Origin: Beroe forskalii
Taxonomy: Eukaryota; Ctenophora; Nuda; Beroida; Beroidae
Direction of reading: 5' to 3'
Assembly: GCA_011033025.1 (NCBI GenBank)
Contig: WFMF01000003.1
Coordinates: 1,891,483 to 1,955,482 of the forward strand
Length of the DNA stretch: 64,000 bases
Under the pieces are notes generated by a model. That model had not been told where the DNA came from, ran no database searches, and saw only the letters and a program-made list of their open reading frames with translations. The translations under genes and the position numbers were made by a program. Each line of letters begins with the position of its first letter. Position 1 is the stretch's first letter. Of this stretch, positions 2,848-39,100 are shown in pieces.

Positions 2848-4389
2848 ACGAGTCCATGTGGTGCTGGGTGAACTGCAGTCAGAAGCACGTGTACAACTTC
2901 TCTGGTTACTACGACGAAGTGCTCTCCCCCAGGACAGACTCCTACCAGGTTATAGGAACATTAATTAGACCAGGTCAACTGAACTCACTTTCGGAGTGAG
3001 TTTTGGCGAATACTGTTTTGCCTTTTAAGACGCAAGGGTCTTCAAAGCCTGGCAAGAAAGGTGTCCTGTTGCATTTGTCCCGCTTAGCGTTTGAGCCGTT
3101 GGCCGGCGCCATGGTCCTATGTTTATGAGCATGGACTGCTGCCGAGGGGCGGTCAGAGGACTGCTACCTTGTACTGGTTTTCTACCCCAATATGTTAGGT
3201 AGGTATGTCTCTAGTCGGCAATGTTATTACCTTACATGGAAAGTTAGAATCTAGCCGAAAATAGCAGAATGCGAACAATTTTTCCCGCTTCAAATGCATC
3301 CATACTCATACCCAAATAATAGGCGGACGAGAGGGACTATAAGATGCATAGATATTTAGATAAGAGTCATTCCATGGTTGGTGAAGCTACCCTGCCACTC
3401 GTCACATCGAATTTTATAGTCAGCAATGCGATGTGACCGGGCACAAATCTATTTCAGGTTTATTTGGACAGAAAGGAGGACCCAGTAACGAAGCCAGCGT
3501 TCTGTACCTACTACAATTGTACACGAGTATGTACATCATCCACATCATATTGTTTACTTTGATGTAAAATGTATATTAATGGACTAACAATGACTCTATT
3601 CAATGAATAATGATTCTAAGGAATAATGGTCGGCTTATTATGAGCATATTCACATATTCCATACCATTGTTCGGTAATTTAGTAATTTGTAATGCCTATT
3701 TCAAACAGATCATACAGTCTACCTTACTTCAGTTAAATTAGAAATTTGAATAATGGTGGATAGGGGACCTGTGATTATCATGAAAAGTGATAAAAGTGAT
3801 TTTTTGCTCGGAAAAAACTCACTCAGAAAATCTGTATTCAGGACTTTGAGAACTATCCCTCGTGTCTCCTTGTCAACTTCACGGCGTACAATGAAACTTC
3901 GGGCAGAGATGAGGAGTTGCTCGACCTCAGCTGTGTCAACCGAACTTACAACCGTGAGTACACATACCTTTGAAACTTATTACGGTAATTATGGTAATTG
4001 ATCAACGATCTCAACTATATGAAATTTTCCAGGTCAAACTTTTCTATTTCTGATACTTTCTTCAGTTGATGAAATGCCAAATTATACTCATCTATAACAT
4101 GTCTCCAGTTGATAAGGTTATCAAGAGAGCTACCGAGCACTGGGCCTCGCAGAACATGACGAACCTCAGACGGAACTTCCACAACCAGCAGGTCCCGGAC
4201 GATCCCCTGGGGGTGGGGATCGTGGACGGGATCTACCAGTGCCTGCAGAGGGACTACTGCCACGACCTCCGTCCTTTCCAGCTCTTCAACTTCGAGGGCT
4301 CAGCACATGTACTGACCTGTGACTTGTACCTCCTGATGCTCTGTATGGCCGGGTGGGTGGTGCAGCAGTGGGTCCGGGATTGGGAATGA
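2848..4389 (+). CDS. cysteine-rich glycoprotein, 3' four exons, family unknown
   Basis: Four exons fit by phase: 2848-2948, 3458-3526, 3842-3953 and 4109-4389 (TGA stop). Acceptors are tccacag, atttcag, tattcag and tctccag; donors are CAG/gttata, CGA/gtatgt and ACC/gtgagt. They give about 187 residues, incomplete at the N-terminus because the first exon enters mid-codon and no start exon was found. There are at least ten cysteines, many in short C-x(n)-C pairs (WCWVNC, FCTYYNC), and seven N-glycosylation sequons (NCS, NFS, NCT, NFT, NET, NRT, NMT), which points to an extracellular or luminal domain. The end (LYLLMLCMAGWVV followed by QQWVRDWE) looks like a short hydrophobic anchor; the charged tail argues against a standard GPI signal. 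I do not recognise the family. It is divergent from the sulfatase. Stop-proximal sequence is cut 105 bp downstream by a transposable element. Confidence 0.7.
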
Positions 4390-4493
4390 AACCCACTCAG
4401 ATAGGGGTGGGTGTCAGAGATTAGCATGCCACTACAACAGCTGCCTGGAGCATGCAAGACAAGGAAACTGCTGGTAGTTCTATCTGGAATGAA

Positions 4494-7306
4494 TAGTCAG
4501 GTCAGTTATGCACATCCGGCTGCATTTATAGGTGCAAGTTTGAGACTCGGTTTGTAGGCTCTCCATATGTAACTCTTTCGAAATGTACCGTGACGCAATG
4601 ATAAAAAGTGGTGGAACACGCCCAAATGACCACGCCCATTTTTACCATGGGAAAATTTTGAAATTTCAATTTTCAGCCAATTTTCACATGCTTGGCATCA
4701 AAGTAGCATGTTTTTGACCCGCTGAGTCGAATCCCGGCATCAGTTTTACATTTCAACCTTCCCCTGACCCTATAGGCCCGACCACGCCCTTTTTCGGTGA
4801 CGTATCAGTTCAAAATGATCCAAAAGCATTAATTTCCTCTGGAGGACATATTATACATCAAACTAGTATTAATTTGGACCCCTGAATCGATTGCTGATGT
4901 TATTTTTCTGATTTGACCTTGTCCCGACCCTTTTGGAACGACCGCACCCTTTTTTGTTTGTATCCCATGAGGCCAAAACTTCATGAATCATTCTAATCAG
5001 TTAGTACCTATGGGGAGCACAAACTAAAACACTTCGATAATTATAAATAATAACGACTCATATCTAGCACTGAATACTGGTATGGGGAGCCAAGTAATTA
5101 TTGTTAAGTCAGGTACAATATATAGCCCAAGGTAAGGGTGATACCAATATACCATGCTACGTGGTGAGTCCAAAACGTTGATGAAGCCCAGGATTAGGTT
5201 GTGCCAGGTACTTTGTAGCCCGAGGTAAGGACAAGCCTGGTTCAGGTGATCCCACCATACGAGCTGGGACTGCCCAAATGGCACGGGGAGCCCAAATGGT
5301 ATGGGGCAGCTAAGATGGCATGTGGCCGGGATGGTATGGGGAGCCGAGCCATAATAAGTATGGATGAGCCCTAGTTATAAAGGGAAGCCCAAGTCATAAT
5401 ATACAATCTTTGTGATCCCAAGTCACTTCTTCGTATTGGTATGGTCTGTCTAGCTTTGCAATGAGCCGGGGCAATTGAGTAAAGGGCAGACCCAAGATTA
5501 GCATAAGGTAGCCCAAGTTACCTTGGAAAAGCCCCAGGTTTGTACGGGGGACCCAAGTAAGTATGAGGGACCTCGGCCACAGTTCATATAGATTATAGAA
5601 GGGCGTAAACTAGGGAGCCAAAATAATAAGGTGAAGCCCAAGTGGGGTCAGATACAGTATAGCCCAAGGATTAATGATTAGGGAAAGCATGGTCTCATGT
5701 TACACTCACAGTGTAAGGCCAGGATGTCCGTGAAGACATGATGAGGTTCCGTCAGACGTACACTGTACCCCAAGGTAATGGTGACCCTGGAATGGGTGAT
5801 CCCATGTTATGATGTAAGGCCAGAATGTCAGTGAAGAACAGGATAACATGATGAGGTTCCGTCAGACGTACACTGTACCTCAAGGTAATGGTGACCCTGG
5901 AATGGGTGATCCCATGTTATGATGTAAGGCCAGAATGTCAGTGAAGAACAGGATAACATGATGAGGTTCCGTCAGACGTACACTGTACCCCAACTCCCAA
6001 GGTAACGGTGAGCCTGGAATGGGTGATCCCATGTTATGATGTAAGGCCAGAATGTCAGTGAAGAACAGGATAACATGTTTAGATTCCGTCACACGTACAC
6101 TGTACCCCAACTCCCAAGGCAACGGTGACCCTGGAATGGGTGATCCCATATTACAGTGTAAGCCTAGAGCATCGGGTATTCGGGTTAGGTGCTGTGTGGT
6201 ACAATTTAGTGCAAGGTATTAGGTATGGGAAGCCTGGTAGCCCGGGCAATACCAAGATTCGGGGTAATAGGGTTATACAATATACAATGGCGGAAGTGAA
6301 ACCCAGCAATGAAGCGAGTCTGGTTTGGGTGATCTTGTGCGGTGTGCATAGTGGGGAACTGGTGAAGCACGAATTCATGAGGGGAGCTTCCCAAAAGATT
6401 TTGACATAAGGGCATGGTGACATCTGGTATATGTGAATTGTGGACCCGAACGAAAAGGAAGCCATTCTGGCAAAACGATATCCCAGATGGGCTCTATGCG
6501 GTCCAAAACAAAATGGGTGTGGTAGGTCCTGCCAGATGGTGCATATGGACCAGGGAAAGGTTAAAACAGAAAAGTAGCAACAGCAATTGATTCAGGGAGC
6601 CAAAAACACTAACTTAATGCCCCATATTCATATGATAATATTTCATGATGATTCGGCCCTTTGCAGTCTAATCAAAAAGGGAGTGGTCGAGCCTACAGGG
6701 TTAGGGGAGGTCCAAACATAAAAATAACATCGGCAATCGATTCAGAGGTCCAAAAAAAACACTAGTTCGATGCCCTACATTGATATCATAATGATTAGAA
6801 TGATTCATGAAGTTTTGGCCTCATGGGATCCAAACCAAAAAGGGTGCGGTCGTTCCAAAAGGGTCGGGACAAGGTCAAATCAGAAAAATAACATCAGCAA
6901 TCGATTCAGGGGTCCAAACTAATACTAGTTTGATGTATAATATGTCCTCCAGAGAAAATTAATGCTTTTGGATCATTTTGAACTGATACGTCACCGAAAA
7001 AGGGCGTGGTCGGGCCTATAGGGTCAGGGGAAGGTTGAAATGTAAAACTGATGCCGGGATTCGACTCAGCGGGTCAAAAACATGCTACTTTGATGCCAAG
7101 CATGTGAAAATTGGCTGAAAATTGAAATTTCAAAATTTTCCCATGGTAAAAATGGGCGTGGTCATTTGGGCGTGTTCCACCTCTTTTTATCATTGCGTCA
7201 CGGTACATTTCGAAAGAGTTACATATGGAGAGCCTACAAACCGAGTCTCAAATTGCACCTATAAATGCAGAGAGTCAGCAATTTTCGTGCATAACTGACC
7301 AGACTA
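4494..7306. mobile_element. non-autonomous element with ~510-bp terminal inverted repeats
   Basis: The left arm (about 4494-5002) is repeated as reverse complement at about 6795-7306. Ends are TAGTCAGGTCAGTTATGCAC on the left and GTGCATAACTGACCAGACTA on the right. The arms contain degenerate ~180-bp subunits marked by GACCACGCCC and TCGATTGCTGATG; an extra subunit lies at about 6600-6790. GAA occurs just outside both ends as a possible 3-bp target duplication, which is weak evidence. The interior has no transposase-like ORF, only AT-balanced sequence rich in ATGGGGAGCC-like motifs and a ~110-bp minisatellite. It is a foldback-like element of unassigned superfamily, inserted 105 bp after the stop codon of the upstream gene. 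Confidence 0.75.
5695..6150. repeat. 110-117-bp minisatellite inside the TIR element
   Basis: About four copies of a unit containing GATGTAAGGCCAGAATGTCA start near 5701, 5811, 5921 and 6038. The step grows from 110 to 117 bp through a CCAACTC insertion in the later copies. The array lies wholly inside the 4494-7306 element, so its expansion probably followed or accompanied element formation. Confidence 0.8.
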
Positions 7307-9304
7307 GAAGGCCCGATTGGCTAACTGATTGAGGGTTTAGGACTTGGACAGGGCATCATATGGTCCTTGAGTGTGCCTGTCTGGTGTCAATGAGTACCTA
7401 CAGCTGATTCCCTAATTTGACCCTGCAATCTTCATTCAACCCACTAACCCTCATGGCCCAGAGTATCAAGATGAAATACCAGGCATATGTCTAAAAACAT
7501 AAGGTTACTGATCGATTTCGGATATTGACCCAAATAAGAGAATGATAGAAGCGAGATCTGCAAATCTCTAAAATTTCAGAAATGCGTTTCGTTAATAATC
7601 ACGGCACGAGAAATGGGACACATTCTCTGCCTCTTGAAATCTCGGGAATGCTGATTTTACTCTTACAGTATCTTATTTATATTAACTGCTGTAATGACTC
7701 ATACAAAGATATAAAATCTAAAAGTTCACAAATCCACCCATGCATTCAAAAACTCCGGTGTGCCTTATAATGCCTATTTGTGTTTATAATCATATTGTGT
7801 TCATAGTGTGTTTATTATGATATTTTGAGCAATTCAGCGGAAGGAGGAATTCATATTAACTTAAGTTAGAAGTGGGTTGTTAACAGATAAGATAAAAATG
7901 CGGAAAATTTTGATTTCAATGATTTATTTACTCTTATTTGTCCTCAGTCCTCGACGTAAATTTGGAATCCTGAAAGTTGCTCTATTTTTTCACTCGTTTT
8001 CAAAGACTCTGTCGATATTTCGTAAGTGTGTTTATAAGTTGCACCCCTACGCCCAGTAACAAAAAATTGTATCAATGACTTACTTAGTGTTCCAAACCTT
8101 GAAAAACGCATTTGATCTTTTGATCATTATATTTCATTTTCATGCGTTGCACAAAAATTGTTTGTTTTGTCATCAATTTCTATGAGTTAATATTTTTGAA
8201 ATTTGCGTAGTGATCCATGAATTTAAACAATACGGCAAAGTTTATTAACTTAAGGTTCCATATTATTTTCAACTTCTCATAAAATTTCAAAAATTGTGTC
8301 GAAAATTGGGTATTTTCATTACGTAATTAACCACCAAAAAATTTGTTTCCATAGAAGCGATGCCTCTTGTCTTCTTGTCTCCCTTTTGCCTTCGTTTCTC
8401 TTGATAACTTCTTGGCAAGCTCAAATTCATTAAACTGTGCGCCCGCACAAACAGACATTATACGCGTGCCATCTCCAAATTATAATTGAGTTCGCAAATA
8501 GTTTATGTTTGTTTATTTTTTGGTACCATTGTTTCCGTTTAAAATTCAATTTCAATTCTCATGAGTTCATAAAGGAGTGGTTTTATTATCCTTGTGTTTA
8601 TAACAGCTGATAAAGGAAACTACCTAGGTATGCCATCGGTTGAGGTTTTGAAGGCTGGTTTGGGCCAAAGGATCGATTCATTTATTTTTTTTCAAACCAT
8701 CATACGGGAGACTGCAGCCTCCTGAAATCACTTTTCAGCGGTTAATTTTCTAAGCGCAGTTTGTCCTCATTCCAATCATGTGGTGTGAGATACTGATAAC
8801 TCGTTCAACACCCACCCGGTGTATTGTTAAGTTATAAGTGACGGTATGATATTAGCAGCTTACTGTGTTGGTTTGAAGTTTACCAGAGAATTTCACCAAT
8901 CAGCGGCAGGGCCGGAGGAACACTGCCCGCTGATAAGTCGATCACAAGGCCGCTGTGGGTAAGCTGCATCACAGCGCGCCTATTCCAGCCCCAGGTACCT
9001 ACCATCACGTCAATTAGAACATGTTCTATAACATATTATGTTGGGTTGCCATGGCAACACAGCAAGGATCCAGGAGAAAAGAGCTTGTTTCCTGGCTTTA
9101 GAGCGTGCCATTATCTCATTATCTGAGTCGTACTCGAAGCCCAGCAAGCAGAAAGAGGAGCCGTAATCAACTCACCACTTTGAGCGGTGGTAATGACAAC
9201 TGTTGTCGAGCTATGAAGGTCCTATCTCTTCTCTATTCTGTGAGTGGCTGTGCAATGACCTGAGCCAGCTTGCCTCTCATACATCACCGGAGGAGTATTT
9301 AGCG
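7307..9304. other. intergenic, no gene recognised
   Basis: This stretch is AT-rich with only short chance ORFs. The one clear motif is a perfect palindromic X-box at 9045-9058, listed separately. A CCAAT motif (ACCAATCAGCGG) lies at about 8888. Confidence 0.35.
9045..9058. promoter_or_regulatory. perfect palindromic X-box (RFX site)
   Basis: GTTGCCATGGCAAC is the ideal two-half-site RFX motif (GTNRCC, two-base spacer, RGYAAC) and a perfect 14-bp palindrome. RFX proteins are known regulators of ciliary genes in animals. It is 3.2 kb upstream of the SH3-gene ATG, so its target is uncertain. Confidence 0.55.
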
Positions 9305-10305
9305 TACGTAGCTGCTGCCTCACTCTCTTGTTAACCCTTTCATCCCAGCTTCAATCGTGTGACTGCTGCCTCACTCTCTTGTTAACCCTTTCATCCCAGC
9401 TTCAATCATGTAGCTGCTGCCTCACTCTCTTGTTAACCCTTTCATCCCAGCTTCAATCATGTAGCTGCTGCCTCACTCTCTTGTAAACCCTTTCATCCCA
9501 GCTTCAATCTTGTAGCTGCTGCCTCACTCTCTTGTTAACCCTTTCATTCCAGCTTCAATCTCGTAGCTGCTGCCTCACACTCTTGTTAACCCTTTCATCC
9601 CAGCTTCAATCATGTAGATGCTGACTCACTCTCTTTTAACTTTTTAACCCTTTCATCCCAGCTTCAATCGTGTGACTGCCTCACTCTCTTGTTAACCCTT
9701 TCATCCCAGCTTCAATCATGTAACTGCTGCTTCACTCTCTTGTTAAACCTTTCATCCCAGCTTAAAGTTAAATCATGTAGCTGCTGCCTCACTCTCTTTT
9801 AACTTTTCAACCCTTTCATCCCAGCTTCAATCGTGTAGCTGCTGCCTCACTCTCTTGTTAACCCTTTCATCCCAGCTTCAATCGTGTGACTGCCTCACTC
9901 TCTTGTTAACCCTTTTATCCCAGCTTCAATCTTGTAGCTGCTGCTTCACTATCTTGTTAACCCTTTCATTCCAGCTTCAATCTCGTAGCAGCGTAGCTGC
10001 TGCCTCACACTCTTGTTAACCCTTTCATCCCAGCTTCAATCATGTAGCTGCTGCCTCACTCTCTTGTTAACCCTTTCATCCCATCTTCAATCTTGTAGCT
10101 GCTGCCTCACTCTCTTGTTAACCCTTTCATCCCAGCTTCAATCATGTAGCTGCTACCTCACTCTCTTGTTAACCCTTTCATCCCATCTTCAATCATGTAG
10201 CTGCTGCCTCACTCTCTTGTTAACCCTTTCATCCCAGCTTCAATCATGTAGATGCTGCCTCACTGTCTTGTTAACTCTTTCATCTCGGCTTCAATCATGT
10301 CGAGC
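9305..10305. repeat. 51-bp minisatellite
   Basis: Roughly 20 copies of a unit built on TAGCTGCTGCCTCACTCTCT, TTGTTAACCCTTTCATCCCA and GCTTCAATCATG. Because 51 is a multiple of 3, one plus-strand frame stays open over many units as a 17-residue repeat. Indels elsewhere break that frame, so it is treated as noncoding. Copies differ by point changes and short indels, for example TTTTAACTTTT variants near 9630 and 9795. Confidence 0.9.
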
Positions 10306-12284: not shown

Positions 12285-15200
12285 ATGGGCGGGGGACAGA
12301 GCGTGCTGACCACTGATGCTGCCACTCAGACCACCCCAGAAGAGTTCATGAGGTCCTTTGCTGACGTCATGAAGAAGCCCTCAGGAGCGGCGGCTGCCGT
12401 GGCAGCGGCGGTAAGAGTGGGAGGGATGGCCAGAGTCAAGGAGGAGGAGCCCAGCCCCTACCAGATAGTCCAGAACTTCTCTCCAGGTGAGCCTACCAGA
12501 TAGTCCAGAATTTCTCTCCAGGTGAGCCTACCAGATAGTCCAGAATTTATTTTTTGATATTTTTTGATATTTTTTTGAAATTTTTTTGATATTTTTTTGA
12601 TATTTTTTTGATATTTTTTTTGAATTGTTTTGAAATTTTTTTGGATTTTTTTACTCTAATCTTGATAGCAAGTAACCTGATCACCACCAAGTAACCCCTG
12701 ATATCCCTGGCAGATCAGATCAGAGAGATGCTGTCACTGTACAAAGACAAGCAGGAGGCAATAGACAGGTCGTCCATCAAGGCTACAGTGCAAGCTAAGC
12801 GAGACCTCTACAACTCCCTGTCCATCTCCAAGGAACCTTCTAAACCTCGTCTAGACCACGCAGTCCTACACCGACAAAGTTAGTAGTCAATTGTGAGAAC
12901 TTAATCAGTTGTGAGCACCTAGTCAGTAGTGAGTACCTATTCAGTAGTGAGCACCTAGTCAGTAGTGAGTACCTAGTCAGTAGTGAGTACTGAGTACCTA
13001 GTCAGTTGTTAGTACATAGTCAGTAGTTACTACCTAGTCAGTAGTGAGTACCTAGTCAGTAGTGAGTACCTAGTCAGTAGTGAGTACCTAGTCAGTAGTA
13101 AGTACCTAGTCAGTAGTGAGTACCTAGTCAGTAGTGAGTACCTAGTCAGTAGTGAGTACCTAGTCAGTAGTGAGTACCTAGTCAGTAGTGAGTACCTCGT
13201 CAGTAGCAAGTACCTAGTCAGTAGTGGGTACCTAGTAGTGAGTAAGTATAGGAGTACCTAGTCAGTAGTGAGTACCTAGTCAGTAGTGAGTACCTAGTCA
13301 GTAGTGAGTACCTAGTCAGTAGTGAGTACCTAGTCAGTAGTGAGTACCTAGTCAGTAGTGAGTACCTAGTCAGTAGTGAGTACCTCAGTAGTGAGTACCT
13401 AGTCAGTAGTGAGTACCTAGTCAGTAGTGAGTACCTAGTCAGTAGTACCTAGTCAGTAGTGAGTACCTAGTCAGTAGTGAGTACCTAGTCAGTAGTGAGT
13501 ACCTAGTCAGTAGTGAGTACCTAGTCAAGTCAGTGAGTACCTAGTCAGTAGTAGTCAGTAGTGAGTACCTAGTCAGTAGTGAGTACCTAGTCAGTGAGTA
13601 CCCAGTAGTGAGTACCTAGTCAGTAGTGAGTACCTAGTCAGTAGTGAGTACCTAGTCAGTAGTGAGTTGCTAGTCAGTAGTGAGTAGCTAGCCAGAAGTG
13701 AGTACCTAGTCATTAGTGAGTACCTAGTCAGTAGTGAGTACCTAGTCAGTAGTGAGTACCTAGTCAGTAGTGACTAGTGAGTACCTAGTCAGTAGTGAGT
13801 ACCTAGTCATTAGTGAGTACCTAGTCAGTAGTGAGTACCTAGTCAGTAGTGAGTACCTAGTCAGTAGTGAGTACCTAGTCAGTAGTGAGTACCTAGTCAG
13901 TAGTGAGTACCTAGTCAGTGAGTAGTCAGTAGTGAGTACCTAGTCAGTAGTGAGTACCTAGTCAGTAGTGAGTACCTAGTCAGTAGTGAGTACCTAGTCA
14001 GTAGTGAGTACCTAGTCAGTAGTGAGTACCTAGTCAGTAGTGAGTACCTAGTCAGTAGTGAGTACCTAGTCAGTAGTGAGTACCTAGTCAGTAGTGAGTA
14101 CCTAGTCAGTAGTGGGTACCTAGTCAGTAGTGAGCACCTAGTCAGTAGTGAGTACCTAGTCAGTAGTGAGTACCTAGTCAGTAGTGAGTACCTAGTCAGT
14201 AGTGAGTACCTAGTCAGTAGTGAGTACCTAGTCAGTAGTGAGTACCTAGTCAGTAGTGAGTACCTAGTCAGTAGTGAGTACCTAGTCAGTAGTGAGTACC
14301 TAGTCAGTAGTGAGTACCTAGTCAGTAGTGAGTACCTAGTCAGTAGTGAGTACCTAGTCAGTAGTGAGTACCTAGTCAGTAGTGAGTACCTAGTCAGTAG
14401 TGAGTACCTAGTCAGTAGTGAGTACCTAGTCAGTAGTGAGTACCTAGTCAGTAGTAAGTGAGTACCTAGTCAGTAGTGAGTACCTAGTCAGTGGTGAGTA
14501 CCTAGTCAATAGTGAAAGTGCCTAGTCTAGTGAGTCCTCAGTAGTGAGTAGTGAGTACCTAGTCAGTAGTGAGTACCTAGTCAGTAGTGAGTACCTATAG
14601 TCAGTAGTGAGTACCTAGTCAGTAGTGGGAGTACCTAGTCAGTAGTGAGTACCTAGTCAGTAGTAGTGAGTACCTAGTCAGTAGTGAGTGCCTAGTGAGT
14701 ACCTAGTCAGTAGTGGGTACCTAGTCAGTGAGTGAGTAGTGAGTACCTGGTCAGTAGTGAGTGCCTAGTCAGTAGTGAGTACCTAGTCAGTAGTGTCAGA
14801 GTACCTAGTCAGTAGTGAGTACCTAGTGTCAGTAGTGAGTACCTAGTCAGTAGTGAGTCAGTGGTGGTGCCTAGTCAGTGGTGAGTACCTAGTCAGTAGT
14901 GAGTACCTAGTCAGTAGTGAGTACCTAGTCAGTAGTGAGTACCTAGTCAGTAGTGAGTACCTAGTCAGTAGTGAGTACCTAGTCAGTAGTGAGTACCTAG
15001 TCAGTAGTGAGTACCTAGTCAGTAGTGAGTACCTAGTCAGTAGTGAGTCAGTAGTAGTGAGTACCTAGTCAGTAGTGAGTACCTAGTCAGTAGTGAGTAC
15101 CTAGTCAGTAGTGAGTACCTAGTCAGTAGTGAGTACCTAGTCAGTAGTGAGTACCTAGTCAGTAGTAGTGAGTACCTAGTCAGTAGTGAGTACCTAGTCA

Positions 15201-18200
15201 GTAGTGAGTACCTAGTCAGTAGTGAGTACCTAGTCAGTAGTGAGTACCTAGTCAGTAGTGAGTACTCAGTAGTCAGTCAGTGAGTACCTAGTCAGTAGTG
15301 AGTACCTAGTCAGTAGTGAGTACCTAGTCAGTAGTGAGTACCTAGTGAGTACCTAGTCAGTAGTGAGTACCTAGTCATTAGTGAGTACCTAGTCAGTAGT
15401 GAGTACCTAGTCGGTGAGTACCTAGTCAGTAGTAGTGAGTACCTAGTCAGTAGTGAGTACCTAGTCAGCAGTGAGTACCTAGTCAGTAGTGAGTACCTAG
15501 TCAGTAGTGAGTACCTAGTCAGTAGTGAGTACCTAGTCAGTAGTGAGTACCTAGTAGTCAGTAGTGAGTACCTAGTCAGTAGTGAGTACCTAGTCCTAGT
15601 CAGTAGTGAGTAGTGAGTACCTAGTCAGTAGTGAGTACCTAGTCAGTAGTGAGTACCTAGTCAGTGAGTACCTAGTCAGTAGTGTGCACTAGTCAGTAGT
15701 GAGTACCTAGTCAGTAGTAGGTACCTAGTCAGTAGTGAGTACCTAGTCAGTAGTGGAGTACCTAGTCAGTAGTGAGTACCTAGTCAGTAGTAGGCACCTA
15801 GTCTAGTCAGTAGTGTGAGTACCTACCTAGTCAGTAGTGAGTACCTAGTCAGTAGTGAGTACCTAGTCAGTAGTGAGTACCTAGTCAGTAGTGAGTACCT
15901 AGTCAGTAGTGAGAACCTAGTCAGTAGTGAGTACCTAGTCAGTAGTGAGTACCTAGTCAGTAGTGAGTACCTAGTCAGTAGTGAGTACCTCGTCAGTAGT
16001 AAGTACCTAGTCAGTAGTGAGTACCTAGTCAGTAGTGAGTACCTAGTCAGTAGTGAGTACCTAGTCAGTAGTGAGTACCTAGTCAGTAGTGAGTACCTAG
16101 TCAGTAGTAAGTACCTAGTCAGTAGTGGGTACCTAGTCAGTAGTGGGTACCTAGTCAGTAGTGAGTACCTAGTCAGTAGTCAGTACCTAGTCAGTAGTCA
16201 GTACCTAGTCAGTAGTGAGTACCTAGTCAGTAGTGAGTACCTAGTCAGTAGTGTGTACCTAGTCAGTAGTGAGTACCTAGTTAGTAGTGAGTACCTTGTC
16301 AGTAGTGAGTACCTAGTCAGTAGTGAGTACCTAGTCAGTAGTGAGTACCTAGTCAGTAGTGAGTACCTAGTCAGTAGTGAGTACCTAGTCAGTAGTGAGT
16401 ATAATAATGACAAGTTTATACTTATTATGAGTGAGAAGTGACAAGATATTCCCCGATAGAAATAGACAAAGAAGTCATTGATGATGCCTCATTAAACCGG
16501 ACTTTGATAGAGTGAATAGCTGTTAATATAATTGTTAAACTGACTAGGTAGTAGTAGTAGAATAGCTGTCAAACTGTTTGGCGCGAGAGGGCACTAGACA
16601 GTGAGATGTCATCAATAGATCTAATGAATTATTGTATTACTGTTGATGCCGTATCGGTATAGGAGGCAAAAAGGTGCAAAGAGGTCACTACTCGAGTCTA
16701 TAGGATATCATTCCGGTACATGTCGACTGTCGAGAGTTATGCATTCCGCCTCCTGAAACATAATAAGCGTTTAAAATGAGAGAAAACATTTTAAAATAAA
16801 ATTTACTTAACCAGTTGAAACTTTCTGGCTCTGGTCTTTGAACAGAGCTGTTCAGTGCTTAGGACGAGCTGCATGAGAATGGAACTGCAATCACGGCAAT
16901 GCGTGGATTGTGAATTAGCTTTGAGAAATCAAGAAATCATGTCGCTGTCAAGCTATCATGTTCAGTGTCTCACAATATTTACAGCGCTTGAATTCACTAA
17001 CTTAGAAGATCGCCGATATGATACTAAATCCTTTGGCTTTCTCCCTTCTTTATTTCGAGGATTAGGATACTGTAAGCGTTTCCCGGAAAATATCAATAAT
17101 GCAGCCGATGAGTGATAAAATTTTGCATGCTATTTTTAGTGATTTGAATTAATCAAAATTGACTGCATTTAGACACTTTAGGCAAACTTTACTCCCTTTG
17201 TTGATTTGTGTCTGAACTGTCTGAGGTTTAATTGGCCTTCAGTCACCCATCTAATCCAGCCCTTACCTAAGTTTCAAGACAAATTAAATCAGGCCGGATT
17301 AAATCTACTTTTTAGCAGAGATAAATTTTAAACCAACCCACAAATCCACAAAGTTTTACCGGTTGTTCAGCTTCTTTTAGTTAATTTTGAGCACTCTGAC
17401 AACGCTGATTCAGATCGGATAAATCAGGTATGTATCGGACTATCGGCAGATTCCAGTACTTGATTTACGTTGGCGAGGAGCAAAATGAGTAGTCGTCTAT
17501 TTCAATTATCACGGCCGCAGAGTAGGTATGCCTACAGTAGCACCTCCAAAACTCAGATAATTGCGAATTCTCGCTATAAAACTTGCATACTCAGTGTGAA
17601 AGGCTTAAGCAGCCTGGTGTTACAAACCAGGCTCAATTCCCGGACAACACTTGCCTCAGACAGAATGCTTATAACAATACCAAGCAACAATAAAGCGATA
17701 AGCATTAAACCGTTTAGAATCACTTCAAGTTTGAATTAGACCCCAGCCTAGCGCACTGCCCCAGGTCCCTATTCTACGCTTTTTGGTCTCCTAGGAAACC
17801 ATAGAGTACACATATTTAAATAATAAATGATTTAAAGTAACAAAATTCGCTAATTTGCCCATAAACTGGCACCCCTCTGTGGAAGGGGTTTCAATCAATC
17901 GAAATCATGTACTGGCGAAAGTTTCTTCTATTTTTGATCACTCCAAAGAGGTTTATAGCGATAATCTATAACACAGTCTTTATTCCAGATCATCCAAAGG
18001 GCTATTTAACGAAAATAACAACTGATTACGAAGCAAAGCACGATGAAGAGATAACGGTTCATAAGGGCACAATGGTCAAGGTAAGAAAATAATGGAAGAA
18101 GATAAAATCAGTTCAAGATATCATCAATAGAATCGAGCGATTAATCGTAAATTGCAAACCATACGAAAATTGTAAATATATCGAATTCCCCCCCCCCCTC

Positions 18201-20351
18201 CCTTAATATTGCAAGAAATAAGATTCTCAACAGACGTGCATTGATAGCAGCCAGAATGTAAGGAATTTGTGACATTGGCTTATTTATACATCATTTTTTC
18301 AAAAGGTTATAATGCCAATCTTTTCACATAAAAGTTAGTTTGGACATCTGTGGTGACCAAAAAACTTTTTTGAACATGATATTACCTTATTTGTGGCAAC
18401 TGTGAGGTTAAATATGAGGCTGATTTGAGCAAAAATGCCTTATTTCACAGCTTTTGGCCATTTAATGCATCAAAGAAGTGTTTTAGTCCTCCAAAAGTAT
18501 TTTTTTCTTGATCTGGAGGTCAAAATCCACCTTTTAGGTCAAAAGTTAGGAATTTGTGACCTTGCGTTGTCGATTTGAGGCTAACACAAAATCCAATTTT
18601 TTGATAAAAACATGGGAAGGAAGACACTTATCCTCACCTGAGATCTGCCAACAAATCCTTATGAGTAAAATTTTGATTTGAGGTGATCTTAGACAGTTTC
18701 AGCTTCATTTTGGTATCAAGAATATGTCTTTACTTGCTTTTGTTGCTGTTTTGAGGCTAAATTTTGTCATGACATCTCAAAACCTGGATTTTACTGTTTT
18801 TAGCCACTTCAAACATCAAAGAAGTGTTTGAGTCCTCCCAAAGTCATCAGTCTCCATCAAAAGGTCAAAATATACTTCCTTGGTCAAATTTGGGAGTTTT
18901 TGACCTTGCGTTGTCCATTTGAGGCTAAAAAATGACCTGAATTTTTGATAAAATCCCCAGGAGGAAGTCACTTAACCTCTCCTGAGAGCCACCAATCCAT
19001 CCCATTGTGAAAAATTTGGGTTTGAGGTGATCCTGGACAGTTTCAGCTTCATTTTGCCATCAAGAATCTGTTTTCATTGGCTATTGTTGCTGTCTTGAGG
19101 CTAAAACTGTGTCGCGACATCTGAAAACCTGGATTTTACAGTTTTTAGCCATTTTTAACCTCATGGGGGTGCTTCAGTCCTCCTAAAGAAATGTAATCTT
19201 AATCAAGAGGTCAGAATATACTTCCTTGGTTCAAATTTGGGAGTTTTTGACCTTGCGTTGTTCATTTGAGGCAAAAACAAGGCCAAATTTTAAGATGAAA
19301 TTCCCGGGAGGACATCGCTTAACCTCACCTGAGAGCCACAAATTCATCCCATTGTGCAAAATTTTGGTTTGAGGTGATCCTTGACAGTTTCAGCTTCATC
19401 TTGGTAACAAAATTATGTTTTCATTGGCTTCTGTTGTGGTCTTGAGGCTAAATTTGTGTTGTGACATCTGAAAACCCGGTTTTCGGAAAACGGGCCTAAG
19501 ATTAACCCCTGAGGGACAACATAAAGAGGTGGGACCAGTTTAATGCCACCAACTTGTAGCCACCATGGGTACTACAAGTTGGTAAGACAACTTCAGGTCA
19601 GGCCCCTCTCCCTCTGGGAATAATAGGTCGTCTACATAGCGCTGACACCGCCTCTTTGACCAGACCACGGAAAAGTAAAGCAGGTAGCCAGGATCTATCC
19701 ATGTCAACTTGTAGCAGCCATGGGTACTACAGTTTGGTGTAGGATTGGTTTCTCTTCTGTGTTGGATATTGAGGTTAAGAAGGCCGTCTACAAGGCCGCA
19801 TGGGTTGCATCCCACCGCCCCGATAACCTCAACCGGGCCACGAAGGACTTGGCCTTTCCAGTGAAGACTCTTCTTATGTAGGAGGGTCTTCTCGAATTTT
19901 TGAGATAGATCCCAAGGCTGTATCTCTTTTAGTTTTTGAGTTATGAGCTCTTTTGTGAGGGAAATCGAGTCGCATGTCACAAATCGAAAGCGACTTTTTA
20001 GGTGGTTTTAACCTCATAAAATCTCAACATAAGGTCGGATTTTTGATAATTTTGTTGCAAATGATAGATATCAATGAGTTCTTTCATATAAGACTGTTTC
20101 CAGCCATCTGGGGTGCCTATTTCACTGCACAGAAGCCTTTAAGTGTCAAAAATGGCCAACTTGCATTCTGGCTGCTATCGATGCGTGTTATTTAGAAGTT
20201 TAACACTCGTCCATTGACCTAAAACTTTTACAATTCCAAGGTCCTAAGAAACCACAAAGACGGAAGATACGAGGTTTACACGGCTGGAGGGTTTGGACTC
20301 GTGCCTGGAAAAGTGCTGGCCTACATCCAATACGAACCTGACTTCACATGA
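12285..20351 (+). CDS. N-myristoylation-signal protein with C-terminal atypical SH3 domain
   Basis: Exons 12285-12486, 12714-12878, 17989-18080 and 20241-20351 join in phases 1, 1 and 0 to give exactly 190 codons including stop (189 residues). The start MGGGQS fits the N-myristoylation pattern (Gly2, Ser6). Residues 1-67 include an alanine run; 68-122 are charged and probably helical (QIREMLSLYKDKQEA). Residues about 130-184 form an SH3 domain: TTDYEA, then DEEITVHKG, then VKVL, then GFGLVPG. The conserved specificity-pocket Trp is replaced (DGRY) and the P-x-x-Y tyrosine is missing (PGKVL), so ordinary PxxP binding is doubtful. Likely a small membrane-tethered adaptor; no named family recognised. 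The exon 2 donor (AAA/gttagt) sits at the very edge of the 18-bp satellite. A 5'-overlapping ATG at 12280 in strong context encodes nine codons only. The long introns 2 and 3 are full of repeats. Confidence 0.75.
12487..12556 (+). repeat. 35-bp duplication of an exon end and its splice donor
   Basis: The last bases of exon 1 with its donor (CTCTCCAG/gtgagcc) are copied in tandem with a 35-bp step, so a second identical donor lies at 12522. A third, partial copy ends at about 12548 and runs into T-rich repeats. Use of the second donor would shift the frame, and the first frame meets TAG just after the junction. Confidence 0.8.
12546..12650. repeat. T-rich (TTTTTTTGATA)n simple repeat in intron 1
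   Basis: About eight imperfect units of a run of T followed by GATA or GAAA, inside the 227-bp first intron of the SH3 gene. Confidence 0.85.
12879..16400. repeat. 18-bp satellite array, ~190 copies, in intron 2 of the SH3 gene
   Basis: The unit GTCAGTAGTGAGTACCTA repeats almost without break for 3.5 kb. The first few units are decayed (GTTAGTAGTCAATTGTGAG and so on), then it becomes highly homogeneous around 13.9-14.4 kb, with scattered indels and short truncated units elsewhere. Every unit carries GTGAGTA, a strong 5' splice-site sequence on the sense strand, and CTAGTCAG two bases before it. One frame per strand is open (VSSEYL on plus, RYSLLT on minus) because 18 is a multiple of 3; these are not taken as proteins. 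The array starts at the exon 2 donor itself. Confidence 0.95.
16401..17988. other. remainder of SH3-gene intron 2
   Basis: AT-rich intronic sequence with no recognised exon. ORFs here are short and lack splice support. The intron ends in TTTATTCCAG. Confidence 0.5.
18310..19490. repeat. three tandem ~350-bp units in SH3-gene intron 3
   Basis: Diverged copies share GACCTTGCGTTGTC, GAGGTGATC..GACAGTTTCAGCTTCAT and AAGTGTTT(G/T)AGTCCTCC. Repeats of the last motif fall near 18475, 18822 and 19168, so the step is about 346 bp. No ORF is conserved between units. Confidence 0.75.
19497..20240. other. end of SH3-gene intron 3, with unassigned minus-strand ORF
   Basis: A 146-codon minus-strand ORF (19980-19540) includes a twice-repeated stretch around CCAACTTGTAG..CTACAAGTTGG (19548-19583 and near 19703-19736). 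It has no recognisable domain or splice context and may be a worn transposon segment. The intron ends in an unusual AAG acceptor (CAATTCCAAG/GT). Confidence 0.3.
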
Positions 20352-22977: not shown

Positions 22978-23045
22978 TTTTGGCTAGGGATAGGGCTAGA
23001 GTCAAGGGTTTGGGTTAGGTTAGGGTTATGGTTAGGGTCATGGGA
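22978..23045. repeat. degenerate interstitial telomere-like (TTAGGG) repeat
   Basis: GGTTAGGTTAGGGTTATGGTTAGGG and flanking GGGATAGGGCTAGAG variants give a short, worn run of TTAGGG-like units on the plus strand. TTAGGG is the common animal telomere repeat. Confidence 0.5.
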
Positions 23046-30196: not shown

Positions 30197-33100
30197 ATGG
30201 CATCGCCACCTCCCTCTAATTTTGATCAAGCAAATGAAGAGGATGGTGAAACTATGTCCGGGGATCCAGTAAAAGAGACGACAAACGATGATGAAATTGT
30301 GGGTAGTGAGGAAGTTGAAGGGGCGTCAAGGGAAGTTGAAACTCTTCCTGAAGAGGCTGTAAAAAAGGAGTCAGACAGTGATAGAACTACAATTGCTGCT
30401 CCTCCTGATGATACGACTGTAGAGGATTGTTCTGATACTGATAGCTTACAAGAGGGTGGTGATCTAGTTGTTTGTGATGATACTGAGAATGCTGCCAGCA
30501 CTGCCCAACCAGTTGATGATAATATTGCTGCTGGTAAAGATGGCTCAGAGGATGTCATGCCTGAAGGTGGGCCTGCCATCAAAAACCTGAAGAATACAAT
30601 AAACGAAGTCTTCTGGTGCAAAATCAACAGTAAGCTTTGTATTTCTGTATTATTATCCTATTTTGCTTTGCTTGTGGAGTGCCCTTTAGAGGGATTTATT
30701 TATATTAATTATTTTCATCTCAAACCCCTTAGAAATGCAACTGATGCATAATACCTCACTTTGAGTTACAGTTTCTGATTAGTCATTAATCATTAATCAA
30801 ACATGATTTTCATCGATCCACCAGTCTCAACTTCGTTGTATATCTTGGTACTGAATGGTTTAGTTTAACTCTTCTTTCAGATCATGTTGAAGATTTACTG
30901 AATAGTATGGATACCGAAGGGCAACCAAGTGATCCTAAAGATGCTAATGCTAGCGAGAAAGGTGAGTAATCAGGTTTAAATGCTCTTAATATTTGGGGCA
31001 ATCCAGAAAGGACGTCCGCAAAATTTAGACTATTTTAGACCCCTCCCTACCCCTTGTCCACAAACGTCTGCAACCTGAAATACGTCCCTCCCGGACGTCC
31101 GCATTTTCATTGCACATCTTTTGTGATCTCATTTTTATGCTTGTTTTCTCAAATATATGGTGACAACTTTTGATTTGACTCTGTCGAAAATCTAAGCCAA
31201 ACAACCCTCTCCCCTACGTCCGCAAACTTCTGCATTGACCAGACTCCCCCTCTTTACAGACGTCCTCCATTGATATACAAAAAATAATGGTTTGCTCCAT
31301 TTCTTATATGAATGGGGGCGCCACTTTCCCAATTGTAAATAACTCAAGAAAAAGTGGATTGGGACAGAGGCAAATGAGACCGAGGAAATGGGACAAATGT
31401 CACTCAATAAGGGAGTTGGGTTTGGGACAATATAAATGGGACAACTCAGATAGAAATGGGACAAATGGGACTGAGAAAATGGGACAAATGTCACTCAAAA
31501 AAGGGAGTTGGGATTGTGATAGTAAAAATGGGACGACTAAGATCTAAGAAAAAAATGGGACTCAAAAATTGAATTTGAACAGGGACAAATGAGACATATT
31601 CGGGACAAATGGGAAATTTGGAACACAAATGGTATGAATGTAAAAGTTGTAGTGTAGTGGCTGCTTCTTAGCTTCATCGTTGAGGTTTTCCTACTTCTTC
31701 TTAAGTTCGTCAGTAGTCCGTGCAACGGGGGATTGAATGCACCCAGCCTTATGAACTTCGCCGTCACATCTTTCCAAGCAAGTGCTTTCCTCTTCATGTC
31801 CTTTACGTCCCTGCTTGTGACTTTGGACTCCAGAATGTTCCGAGATTCATTAACCAATTTAAACATATTAGCGCGTCTTTCTTGCTCTTACTTCGGATGA
31901 GTTCACATTCATTTGGCATTATAATTGTGCAAAATAGCTTCAAATGAAATTTGATTTTATAAAGGAGCACTCAAAAATATACTTAAGCGGCTAGATGAGG
32001 GTCATGCATCAGACCCGAGTTGAAAGAATTACCGTTTTTTGACTGGATTATGTATCTTGGTCGGGGTATAATGCAGTTCCATGATCTCAGCTGTGATCGC
32101 ATACTTTCGAATATGATTGAACTGGGCACACCTCGTCAATTAATTCCACCTTATAAAACAAACATTGGCGAACCAGGTCTTTGAGTCACACAGGCACACT
32201 ACTCTTGAGTTGAGCCACCATGTCATCCAGAAGAGAGTCTTTGACTAGTGTTAGAACTCGAAGAGACTTCGGATGATAGTAAGTCTAAAGTATTCTTCAA
32301 TAGTGTAGTTCTAGCTTACCTCCATTCTGGTGTTATGAAATGGAGTCACGACCGGCTTAGGCGGAGTTAAACGTCGTTTTATGGGCGCCCAATGATCCTC
32401 CTCCCAATTCCAACTTACTAAGTCTCGATCATGTGAGTTGCGGTACACGGTTACCACTTCGACATGTAAACGCTTATTAACTTGCTGTGGAAGAAAAAGA
32501 AACCAATTCTTAAATATCCCCAGATTGTGTGCCTCAGACTGTGATGGGGTAATAAAGATGACATTCTTTGTACTGTTTTCTATTTGGTTGCGATTTTGTA
32601 GCTCTCTTATCAGCTAGTGCTTATCTACTGTGTACTGCTGCCATACCTGCATTGTGTTCATTCTACCGTGTATATACAAGACAATATGGCATCGAATCGT
32701 CACCAAAATGACAGTGAAAACGTGAAAGTCGTCATTGGAAAACTCCTAGAAAAGGCTGCGTCGTCTGTCAGACCAGTCATTTCCAATTTTGACTATTTTC
32801 AATCACGAGCAGTCAACATTCAGCGTTTTAATCAGTTCAATGTCGCGTTACTCGAAAATTGTGCTGAGTTCTTGGAGATTGCTCTTGCGGATAAAGACGG
32901 GTACAAGATCTACACTAAGTCTACCCTTGTTGGCCGCATCTATCTTGCGTTCATGGCTCTGATGCCGACCAAGTGTGGTGAGTGTGGGGACGACTATTTG
33001 ATCGATCATGAGCCGGAAGCTCAACCGTTTTTCACCTGTTTCAAGTGCTTTCAAGGATCTCACGACTGCGACAGAAACAGATTACTGCACCAGACTCTAG

Positions 33101-36100
33101 ACGCAATGAATACTCCGACTGGTTTTGTTTGGCTCTGTGACACTTGTCACAAATCTCTTGACCCAATTGCCCCTAGGAAACAGAGATCCCGCCACAATTC
33201 CGGAACGCTATCGTCTCACGAAAACCAGTCACTGGACGGTACATCTGACAGTTTAGGACTTCCCATACCGAATACTTTGCCATCATCTCAGACAAGTAGT
33301 TTTGTAAACATTTCGTCTGAGGCGTCAGCTGACTCAGCAGCTGCTCCTTCGCAGGATGCCGCCACCGACCTATCTCCTGCTGCAATCTGCCAGAGATTCC
33401 TGAACTGGAACTGCCCCCATGGAATCAGTGGTAAGAAGGAGGTTGGCGGAAGCCGATGCCCTTATACTCACCCTAGGATCTGCAATCAGTTCAGAGAAGC
33501 TGGTGCTACCGGGAGCAAAGGATGCAAGAAGGGCAAAGACTGCAGCTTCTATCACCCCGAGATCTGCGAAACTGTGGTAGGGAGTGGTTCATGTTCCAAG
33601 AAAGGCTGTTCGAAGTTCCATCCTCGTTCTGGCAAGAGGAAACCTCCTCGAACTTCCAAGGAGAAAGCTACTAAAGGGAAAGGAGCCAGCAACAACAACA
33701 GCAGCAACTCGGAATCAAAAGATTTTTTAGAGTTGCAGAACTTGGTCGTAGGAATGGCGGCCAAGTTGGAGGCGCTGGAGAAGAAGTTGGACCAAGGTGC
33801 AGCCACGTGTCAACCAGTCACGTACCCAGCTTCAGCTCCACACACCCAAATACCGATGTACTACCCAGCTCCTACACCCCCACCAGGAATGGTCAGGCTA
33901 TCCAACCATCACATCCCGAGCTTCCCTCATCCCTCCTACTTCTAAATGCGAGGAGTCTCAACCCATCTGCAAACAGTGCTGGCAGATGGAAGCTCAACGA
34001 GCTGACTGGTCATGTTGAGGAGAGACGTCAGTCTGGTCAGCTTTTCCCTTTTATCGCGGTGACGGAGTCCTGGTTAAAGTCCTACATCAGTGATGCTCAG
34101 CTCCAGATACCAGGATACTCCCTCTCACGGTGTGACCGCGACAAGAGGAATGGGGGAGGAGTCATGCTCTACTCCTTCTCATCTCTCCCCATCTCAGTTT
34201 CCGAAAGTTTCGATGACGGTATGTGTCAGGGGCTCTACAACATCTACCCATCTGCTAAGCTGTTAGTGGCAGTCATCTACAGGCCCCCTGATGCTACTCT
34301 TTCCAGTTTTTCGAATCTTCTCGACCATCTGAGGTATGCTATTGAAAACCTTCCAGGCACAGATTATGACATCTTCATTACAGGTGACTTTAATCTGCCT
34401 CAGATTGAGTGGGAGTCTCTCCAGGTTCAGAGTGGCGGAACTTCAGAGTCCAATCTCTCAGCTCAGCGCCTATTGAACTTCATGGCTACTCATTTGCTCA
34501 GTCAGATGGTCACTGTTCCCACCAGAGAATCAAACATTCTCGACCTTGTTCTCTGCAGCAATGACAGACTGGTACTGGATGTCAAAGCTGAACCAACGGA
34601 GATATCGGATCACCACATGGTGAGTGCCTTGTTATCTTTTGTTCCAGGTGCCATCGGGGATGCTCAGGCTACATATCTTGATGAGATGAACTTCAGGGCC
34701 TTAGACTTTTCTCAGGCCGATTTTTTAACGCTCGACAAGATTTTCGACACTGTACAGTGGAAAGAACTGAGAGATGCTAGCACTTTTGAAGAGTTTCCAG
34801 CAATATTCACTAAAACAGTGTTAGACGTGTGTCTGGCTAACATTCCCAAGAAACGACCTCCTACTGGCAAGCCTAAGGTGTACAACTCTCTCAGGAGGAG
34901 GAAGTCCAGACTCAAGACTCGTCTTACTGCGGCAAAGTGTGCTGGGGACCACGCACGAGTTAAGCTACTTGAAGATGAAATTGGGTTAGTGTGCTATGAA
35001 ATCAAGGAGGCTATCATGCACCATCTTGACAAAGGTGAAAGCAGGGCAGTGGAAAGAATCAAGACTAATCCTAAGTTCTTTTACTCATATGCTAAATCAT
35101 TCTCCAAGGTTCAGCATAGCATTTCAGCCCTCCTGAACAAAGACGAGGAGCTAGTTACTGAACGCAAAGAGCTTGCTAACATCTTGCAGCAGCAGTTCTG
35201 TTCTGTATTCAGTGACCCAAACTGTCCCAACAAATCAGATCCTGCTTTCACCGTACCACCGCTGATCAGTAACGATACAGAGCTTGTGGTTACACTAGAC
35301 AATATAGTGGAAGCTATATCCGAGATAAAGCTCGACTCTGCTCCAGGGCCTGATGGGATACCTGCCGTTCTACTTAAGAAGTGTGCTTCTAGTTTGAGTG
35401 TCCCTATCCACCTTCTATGGTCAGAATCCATGTCCACTGGTAAAGTACCGAGCTTCTACAAGAAAGGGCTGGTTACACCACTCTTTAAGAAAGGTAGTAG
35501 ATGTGAAGCTGCCAACTACAGGCCTGTAACTCTGACGTCACATGTGGTGAAAGTGTATGAGAGAGTGGTCAGAAAACACATGGTACACCATCTTGAATCT
35601 AACAATCTGTTAACTGAGAAGCAACACGGTTTTAGATCAAACAGAAGCTGTCTCACTCAAATGCTTGACCATTTCGATGGTATATTCGAAGGGCTAACAA
35701 ATGGTAAAGACACAGATTCCATCTACCTGGACTATGCAAAAGCGTTTGATAAGGTTGACTTGGAACTTCTTATCTCTAAGCTTAAGAGATATGGGTTTCA
35801 CAACAAGCTTATAGAATGGATCCAGTCGTTCCTCACTGATCGAGATCAAGTGGTGGTTCTGAATGGTGTTCACTCAGACCTCGCTAAGGTTTTGAGCGGT
35901 GTTCCTCAAGGAAGCGTGCTAGGGCCACTCCTGTTCATATTGTTCATTAATGACTTAGAACAAGTGGTGGCTTCATCTAAGGTCAGCTTCTTTGCCGACG
36001 ATACTAGAGTTTCTAAACAGATTGGCTGCCTTGAAGACTGCTTGCTGCTTCAAGATGATCTGTACAGAATTCTTCAATGGTCACAGGGAAACAACATGGA

Positions 36101-39100
36101 GCTCCATGAACAAAAGTTCGAGCTATTGAATCACCTACACTCCAGTAAAAGCTCAAACTTCGAACTCCCTTTTGTTGCTGAAACTTTGTGCTACAAAGTT
36201 TCTGATGAGGTACTACTCAGTCCAGTTGAGCACGTCAGAGATCTCGGAGTTCGCGTATCAAGTGATCTCAGCTGGTCTAGGCACATTGGGAATATAGTGT
36301 CAAAAGCCAGAAGCTCTTTGTCTTGGGTTTTCAGTGTTTTTAAAACTCGTGACAGAACTGTCATGTTGACTCTCTACAAGTCGCTAGTTAGGAGCACTCT
36401 GGAGTACTGTTGCCCACTGTGGGACCCACGCAAAGTTACTGAAATCCAGCTCTTAGAGGGGGTACAAAGAACATTCACTAGTCGAATTGGTGGTCTACAG
36501 CATCTCAACTATTGGGAAAGGCTTGCTGAACTGAAGCTCATGTCACTGCAGCGCAGACGGGAACGCTATGTCATCTTGATGATGTGGAAGATCCTCCACA
36601 ACGTTGTCCCAAACTGTTGCGGCATCACATTCAAAATGACTCCAAGACATGGTTCTGTAGCTATCATTCCTCCACTGTCAAAGTCAAGCTCGTCAGGAAA
36701 TCAGACGCTGTATGACAGGTTCTTCTCAGTTCAAGGACCGAAACTGTGGAACAAGGTGCCGGCTGATGTTAAAGCTACAAAATCGTTTGAATCGTTCAAA
36801 ATCGCACTGTCGAAATTCGTTGCTTTGATACCAGACCACCCTCCGGTCTCTGGTTACAGCTGCAGCTGGTCGAACTCATTGGTAGACTACACACCATCGA
36901 CCTCGAGGTGGTCGGACATCTGATGGCCCTTCTGACTGACGGATAAACTTCACCAAGTTAGTTAGTTAGTTACATAAAGTTTTTTGATCCACCCTTTCTC
37001 TTCCAGCACGAATTCATAAAATCCACCAAAATAATCCCCTTCATGGTTGAAGAATGGGAGATATGGCGTGTTAATCTGGAATTACTTCCGGAATTGCATC
37101 ATAGGGAATTCAAGACGGATTGATTACGTCAGCGAATGGGTACATGGAATGTACACACGTACAAAAAGCAGTAGACTGTCCGGTTGCCGCACAATCGATA
37201 TCGCGCGTTAAATCAAATGCTTACAACGATTGGCTTTGTGAGAAACTCTGGCGTTTTGTGTAAAAAGCAAAATAAAGTACGTCTTAAAATGCGCGCGCAT
37301 TCCGCGCGGCACGGCCAGCGAAACAGTACGCACTTTCCGTAGCCAGTGAAACAATTTAATGCACGATTGACTGTCTTTGGCGTCCGATATTCTGCTGTTG
37401 AATGTCAACAAAATCACTTGAAACATGTTTCAGAGTCACCGGAAGAGACCCCAGCATGTTACCTGAAAAGATCGAAGGTTGCCCCTAAGAATGCCAAGGA
37501 ATACACTGCGTTAATGAAAGCTGCGCAGAAAGGAAGTCACAGACGGAGCATGCTGGAGATCTCATCCCCCGATATTGAAGATAATCTGATATCTGTCTTC
37601 CGAAGAGGCATGCACTGTACAGATGCGTGCATCATTCGAGTCCGGGATATTTCTGGGGTTTCTAGGTACGAACGTTACTGATTTAACGAACGTTACTGAT
37701 CACATTTGTCATGCATTTCCTATGTTCTTTACTTTCAACTCAGGTCATCAACTTTCATCATTCATGAAACTGCATTCCACAAATTATTTCAGTCTATATC
37801 CCTACCAATATCTGACCCAAGACTCTCCCCAGGCAATCGCACATCAACCGTACCATTCCCATGGTGTGTATCGACAGAACCATGCTCCAAGAAAACATCG
37901 AACGCCTGCCCTCGGATTCGTTCTTGAGGATTGTGAGGATGCAAAACGATGGTTCTATCAATGTCTTCAAGATGTGCGATGTGTTTGCGAAACGTTCGGT
38001 GATCAAGGGAGGCGACATTCTCCGGACTCTAGCTGTCTCAGAAATGAGGGAAAAGTTCGACTTCGAGGTACACTTTAACTGATAACTGTTCATACTTTTT
38101 TTTACCAGATATTATATATAGCAATCGCTTGTAGGTATTAGTCAAACGATTTCTTGACTTTCCAGTCATTGCTTTGGATTGGGGAGGGGGGATTTAGAAA
38201 CAAGCCAATCCTGAATATTACAACTTGGGTGATATCTCTTTTTTGCGGTTTTAGTTGAGATAATGGAGATTCACATATTATGATCTTTCACTAGACTATA
38301 AGTTTATAACTCATTTACAATTACATCACTATGGCATCAACAACCATCAAGTTATCAGATTAAACGGCTCACACCAATGCATCTACATGTTTCTCACCCA
38401 AAAGCCAAAATGAAGGACAGCATTGGGGACTTCACAACAGCACCCTATCCACATTGACAGCCGATGTTCAGGAGCAGTCGATGGACAAGGAAACCAGGAA
38501 GGTGATGTACAACAAATTCACAAACATGCAACGCTTAGACCGGGGCATTGGCTCCCGACTCAAGTGGCAGTTCATGGAGCGACATGGTATCGAGGAGACC
38601 GACACCATCTCCACCCTCGAGGAAAAGGCGTCCGTTAGTTTCTCCATATTCGGATCGGACGGTTTCCTGACCTACGAGAGCAAGAAGTACCGAGCAAAGC
38701 ACGTTTCCATGATCAGGGATTCTGCAGGACTCTACTACTTCATACCCCGCAAAATGCTCGGTGCCTTCGGGAGTCAGTGGAACCGCCGATATCGGTACAA
38801 CTCGTACCGGCTCAACAACAAGAAGAAGTCAAGCGACGCCTCCTCTGAGTCTCCCTCGGAAATGGCTGAGCCGTCTGCTCCTCCCGCGAAGAAAGGTCCT
38901 GCTAAGGAGAAACAGCCGGAGAAGGTGGTGGAAGCCGTGAAGAGTAAAGCTCGTCCCAATTCATGCATAGAATTTCCGGTATGTGAGGACATCAGTTCCT
39001 CGACATCGACGAAAGTTCAGAAGACTCCCCCGCCCAAGGTGGTCCTGATGTCCGATTCTGAGATCGCAGAATTCAAAAACAGGGCTAATTTGATTAAAGA

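Follow-up and report, generated by a model that had tools for sequence, protein, structure and literature searches.

The locus described here raises the question of whether a long ladder of donor-like motifs, placed directly behind the splice donor of a gene, affects how that gene is spliced. It lies in a 64,000-nucleotide stretch of the ctenophore Beroe forskalii (assembly GCA_011033025.1, contig WFMF01000003.1, positions 1,891,483 to 1,955,482, forward strand), which is the window of this analysis and whose own coordinates are used throughout. At the start of intron 2 of a predicted gene for a protein with an SH3 domain, an 18-bp unit containing a donor-like motif is repeated over some 3.5 kb. 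We consider it likely that this array is an ordinary minisatellite private to the locus, mostly inert, with low-level use of the decoy donors near exon 2.

An array at the start of intron 2

Four predicted plus-strand exons with matching phases specify a 189-amino acid protein, the C-terminal SH3 domain of which was matched to SH3_2 (PF07653, E=2.6e-6, above the cut-off); a search of the PDB with joined exons 1-3 gave no match. The predicted gene and the repeat are arranged as follows (a slash marks the exon-intron boundary).

12285..12486, plus strand: predicted exon 1 of the SH3 gene, with ATG start, open frame and donor CAG/GTGAGC
12714..12878, plus strand: predicted exon 2, with donor AAA/GTTAGT at its end, phase 1
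12879..17988, plus strand: predicted intron 2, 5110 nt, 69% of which is array
12879..12919, plus strand: left end of the array, degenerate in sequence and overlapping the authentic donor, with GTGAGA (+14), GTGAGC (+32) and no GTGAGT
12884..16401, plus strand: 18-bp minisatellite TAGTCAGTAGTGAGTACC, about 197 copies, 162 GTGAGTA
17989..18080, plus strand: predicted exon 3, preceded by TTCCAG, first half of the SH3 domain
20241..20351, plus strand: predicted exon 4, with the second half of the SH3 domain and the stop codon

The exon 2 donor at 12879 is the sole GT in 12714-12879 that scores above 1 on a general donor-frequency matrix. The predicted protein matched the assembly at this locus alone, by four exon matches, and the assembly contains a single full-length copy of the DNA of exons 1 and 2, so that one haplotype is represented. 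A 35-bp tandem duplication (12457-12548) covers the end of predicted exon 1 together with its donor and yields two identical CAG/GTGAGC donors, at 12487 and 12522, with a spacing of 35 bases, of which the second would, if spliced, shift the frame.

Tandem Repeats Finder delimited the array at 12884-16401, with a period of 18, 196.9 copies, 89% matches and the consensus TAGTCAGTAGTGAGTACC. The plus strand of 12879-16402 holds 162 GTGAGTA, 169 GTGAGT, 174 GTRAGT and 124 perfect TAGTCAGTAGTGAGTACC units, and the minus strand of the same interval holds no GTRAGT; the window outside the array has 16 GTGAGT in 60,476 bases. A sequence-only reading of this DNA had reported about 190 copies, on the sense strand of an intron of the SH3 gene, with GTGAGTA in every unit. 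Copy number and approximate place are borne out, as are intron and strand on the predicted gene model; the motif is a property of most units (162 to 169 of the 196.9, or about 82-86%) and not of every one.

With head-to-tail copies and a period within the range of about 10-100 bp, the array is a minisatellite. Its distribution was established with a 25-base unit pattern allowing up to 3 mismatches, which gave 161 matches in the window as compared to none in 100 dinucleotide shuffles. The entire 216-Mb assembly also gave 161 matches, every one of them at the window locus; the array family is therefore private to this locus, and a dispersed or centromeric satellite family is ruled out. A coding repeat, suggested by a YLVSSE frame, was likewise rejected, as indels disrupt the frame, only 17 of 73 indel runs being multiples of 3; the three sense frames contain 164, 288 and 109 stops through the array.

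On the predicted gene model the array begins at the intron 2 donor, no more than 5 bases from it, and its first GTGAGT lies 50 bases in from that donor. Reading through exon 2 into the array meets an in-frame stop at once (LHRQS-stop, HRQS-stop-stop).

Strength and accessibility of the array donors

Duplex energies were calculated with the 5′ end of the genome's own U1, AUACUUACCUG, which is present in five of the six U1 loci examined, 10 loci having matched U1 above the cut-off. The unit site GTA/GTGAGT pairs with U1 at -7.1 kcal/mol, as compared to -14.0 for the consensus, and its exon-side positions -3 to -1 (GTA) all mismatch CAG; the unit had been described as a strong match to the donor consensus, which is correct for the hexamer and incorrect for the exon side. 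For the authentic predicted donors the corresponding energies are -11.1 (exon 1), -3.3 (exon 2) and -9.5 kcal/mol (exon 3). On the matrix the array unit scores 5.88 and the authentic exon 2 donor 5.18, which is about equal, and the score of that donor is attained by 169 sites within the array; outside it, 12.9 kb contain 67 such sites and 47.6 kb contain 243. Since the unit is stronger than the predicted exon 2 donor (-7.1 versus -3.3; 5.88 versus 5.18), the earlier description of decoys right after the real donor is a fair one.

When nine array units were folded as RNA, a long hairpin was predicted (z=-4.89). After the cost of opening local predicted structure, the net U1 energy of the array sites averaged -0.8 and was at best -7.8 (41 of 162 sites sampled), as compared to +0.1 for the authentic exon 2 donor, -3.3 for exon 1 and -9.2 for exon 3. 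On these models the array decoys are numerous and mostly weak, and the real exon 2 donor is predicted to be weak too.

The sequence of events that we favour would begin with expansion of the array from the start of intron 2 by replication slippage and/or unequal exchange. Each unit would then present a weak U1 site, partly concealed in the predicted long hairpin; the authentic AAA/GTTAGT donor would splice intron 2 in most transcripts, and a small fraction may use a nearby array donor instead. Such transcripts would retain intron sequence and stop directly after exon 2, and their product would be degraded, or truncated ahead of the SH3 domain.

The same figures bear on a more active role, in which the array would modulate splicing according to its length, a longer array reducing correct splicing of the SH3 exons or gene output, either because its sites compete with the weak donor or because exon definition is altered. 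The weakness of the authentic exon 2 donor and the immediate stop on read-through both fit such a role, as does the shared anatomy with intron 18 of human ABCA7, where a repeat runs from the donor GT. It is nevertheless rather unlikely, as predicted structure on average conceals the array sites in part and as, in the excerpted text of PMC8964760, human intronic decoy donors other than the most competitive are negligibly depleted, with use observed for about 7% of the unannotated ones.

Array-bound U1 could, conversely, help to define exon 2 at the weak donor, in the manner of exon-specific U1 particles. The near-zero net energy of that donor would leave room for such help, and the portion of PMC4822034 consulted reports that exons are rescued when an engineered U1 binds downstream of the donor; its authors suggest that normal U1, too, might be of help when bound to pseudo-sites in introns. 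The low average net energy of the sampled array sites argues against this reading, as does the lack of conservation across the motif columns as a whole (see below), and we regard it as highly improbable.

A U1 telescripting shield or U1 sponge, as put forward in the sequence-only reading, is barely credible. Donor-like sites are about ninefold denser in the array, which contains no poly(A) hexamers, as compared to seven in the remaining 1.6 kb of intron 2 downstream of it, of which three are AATAAA and four ATTAAA. A unit without AATAAA, however, trivially gives an array without it, the array sites are weak, and titration of U1 by one intron in one single-copy gene is implausible. Telescripting is not supported, nothing in this analysis pointing to it. 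Mis-splicing, the other effect proposed there, is plausible in view of the human ABCA7 and IFI6 precedents, and the earlier interpretation as a whole is partly supported.

Origin of the GTGAGT motif

The unit is composed of repeated AGT steps (tAGT cAGT AGT gAGT acc), and GTGAGT is therefore explained without selection; most simply, it would be a by-product of this structure that was spread by homogenisation. Relative to the unit consensus, the six GTGAGT columns hold 33 of the 67 substitutions, the expected share being 22 (6 of 18 columns; binomial p=0.009), and those within the motif concentrate at +3, +4 and +6. The counts are mutually dependent, array copies being inherited, and the pattern provides weak evidence against conservation of the GTGAGT hexamer.

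Derivation of the unit from the donor itself was considered and rejected: aligned by eye, the authentic GTTAGT corresponds to the TAGT of the unit and not to GTGAGT. The units at the edge show GTGAGA and GTGAGC, which may be either older states or decay, and descent of the motif from the donor is not claimed.

Tandem repeats and donor words in the genome

The survey of tandem repeats drew on 15 sources totalling 162,966 bases: the window, which had been chosen for a donor array, eight stretches of 10 kb picked arbitrarily, and six U1 loci. In this sample 79 arrays cover about 26,922 bases (about 16.5%), 13 of them being at least 500 bp long; without the window, about 18,187 of 98,966 bases are tandem, with 10 arrays of at least 500 bp. 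When 18-bp units were drawn at random from the window, GTRAGT was found on one strand in 1.6% of 20,000 draws, and by rough extrapolation a few hundred large arrays bearing such a motif are therefore expected in 216 Mb.

Word counts across the genome were compared with those of mirror words. Tandem GTGAGT triples (11,770) are fewer than those of the mirror TGAGTG (15,042), and GTGAGTA pairs at a spacing of 18 number 142, of which 112 lie in this window, the mirror giving 97. Single GTAAGT is rarer in the sample than its mirror (82 versus 123). Listed places (the first 100 per word) were also merged within 5 kb and tallied by eye as distinct clusters. Among the matches listed, GTGAGT forms at least 5 clusters and its mirror at least 13 (C1 to 1.41 Mb), GTAAGT at least 11 and its mirror at least 2 (C1), and AGGTAAG at least 16 through C181 and its mirror at least 13 through C176. 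A tally in which GTRAGT occurred in 7 of 43 arrays, as compared to 2 for the mirror, was discarded, as it included loci picked for the motif. The word counts are thus mixed, the sample tests set out below lean to donors, and a genome-wide donor bias of tandem units is not claimed.

Two other loci carry sizeable arrays. In L029, two kb-scale arrays of one 20-bp unit (4087-6286, 110 copies, and 6339-9977, 183 copies) adjoin back to back in opposite orientations. In L019, which was chosen for the motif, a 39-bp array lies near an 18-bp array (at 1-2419 and 3603-4384); the reverse complement of the 39-bp consensus unit contains a donor-like GTGAGT and an acceptor-like CCTCAG, and the 18-bp array has GTGAGTAG in antisense.

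Weighing the readings

Several observations weigh against an ordinary, mostly inert minisatellite. By either measure of strength, the array sites outscore the authentic donor of exon 2, and given this strength and the best net energy of -7.8, decoy use could exceed a minor level; the exemption that PMC8964760 makes, in its excerpted text, for the most competitive intronic decoys points the same way. An array placed at random in a 5.1-kb intron would seldom start within 5 bases of the donor. The GT within the motif is nearly invariant (0 and 1 of 67 substitutions), as would also be expected under donor constraint; since the unit has other columns as free of substitutions as this GT, and since the copies share descent, the substitutions are weak evidence either way on the GT. 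Genome-wide, tandems of GTAAGT (6,662 versus 4,836) and AGGTAAG (1,241 versus 556) exceed their mirrors in total. In the repeat sample, 6 of the deduplicated units (41/74) reach a donor score threshold of 8, as compared to 1.3 expected from random segments and none among the mirror units, six being attained in 0 of 300 random sets and 1 of 300 shuffles; three of the six come from this window, chosen for its donor array. At thresholds of 5.88, 7 and 9 the deduplicated units number 9, 7 and 3 as compared to 4.7, 2.7 and 0.7 expected, and before deduplication 13 of the 79 units reach the threshold of 8 (mirror 1, shuffle mean 4.9).

A bolder reading is that tandem arrays in this minisatellite-rich genome may have the 5′ ends of introns as preferred sites of nucleation, furnishing many genes with sense ladders of decoy donors, of which the present one, site for site stronger than the weak authentic donor, would be a length-tunable splicing rheostat or a U1 landing pad for exon 2. 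We regard this as decidedly improbable, and the locus-private, mostly inert minisatellite with low-level use of nearby decoys as the likely explanation.

Were the array donors used, the proportion of SH3 gene transcripts that are non-functional would be set by copy number, and the locus would constitute a natural test of splicing with about 170 decoys next to a weak donor; were they unused, it would be a clean case of a GTGAGT hexamer being insufficient for a donor. The general lesson is that arrays, and not copies, should be tallied before a repeated motif is interpreted.

Other features of the window

At 32602-36923, open frames of 447 and, overlapping it, 1082 amino acids were found; we take the latter to be endonuclease/reverse transcriptase-like, and both presumably resemble a non-LTR (long terminal repeat) retrotransposon. 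A short interstitial telomere-like TTAGGG run lies at 22985-23043. An N-terminal fragment of a sulfatase-like gene lies at 881-1159 on the minus strand (PF00884 below the cut-off, at E=6e-5), with matches to sulfatases in the PDB at E down to 4e-9.

Comparison with known systems

The closest counterpart is the variable number tandem repeat (VNTR) in intron 18 of human ABCA7, which, in the excerpted text of PMC5954066, starts at the donor and, in long alleles, comprises as many as about 427 units. One unit along serves as a cryptic donor there, single-unit retention amounting to 2 +/- 1% independently of length, and array length tracks exon 19 skipping and expression. The Beroe array resembles it in being intronic, in beginning at the (here predicted) 5′ splice site of an exon and in carrying a sense donor-like motif in its units (169 GTGAGT, no antisense GTRAGT). 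It differs in that the ABCA7 unit is 25 bp long and its first repeat GT is the canonical donor, whereas the unit here is 18 bp and the predicted GTTAGT donor lies at a degenerate edge. The VNTR6-1 of TERT intron 6 is a further intronic VNTR with evidence of a splicing effect; as described in the available part of PMC11830802, it has a 38-bp G-rich unit, and G-quadruplexes are its proposed means of action, at some 3.5 kb upstream of an exon, unlike the present unit, which is without a G run and located at a donor. Multiple splice donor sites were described for the human IFI6 (6-16) minisatellite (Turri, Cuin and Porter 1995), two downstream units being used according to a citing paper, as far as its excerpt goes. 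The ABCA7 case emerged from searches of the open-access literature for this idea, and the IFI6 case by way of citations. The Beroe minisatellite similarly offers several putative donors in its units, here in about 197 copies, and it is a new, large case of this donor-associated kind.

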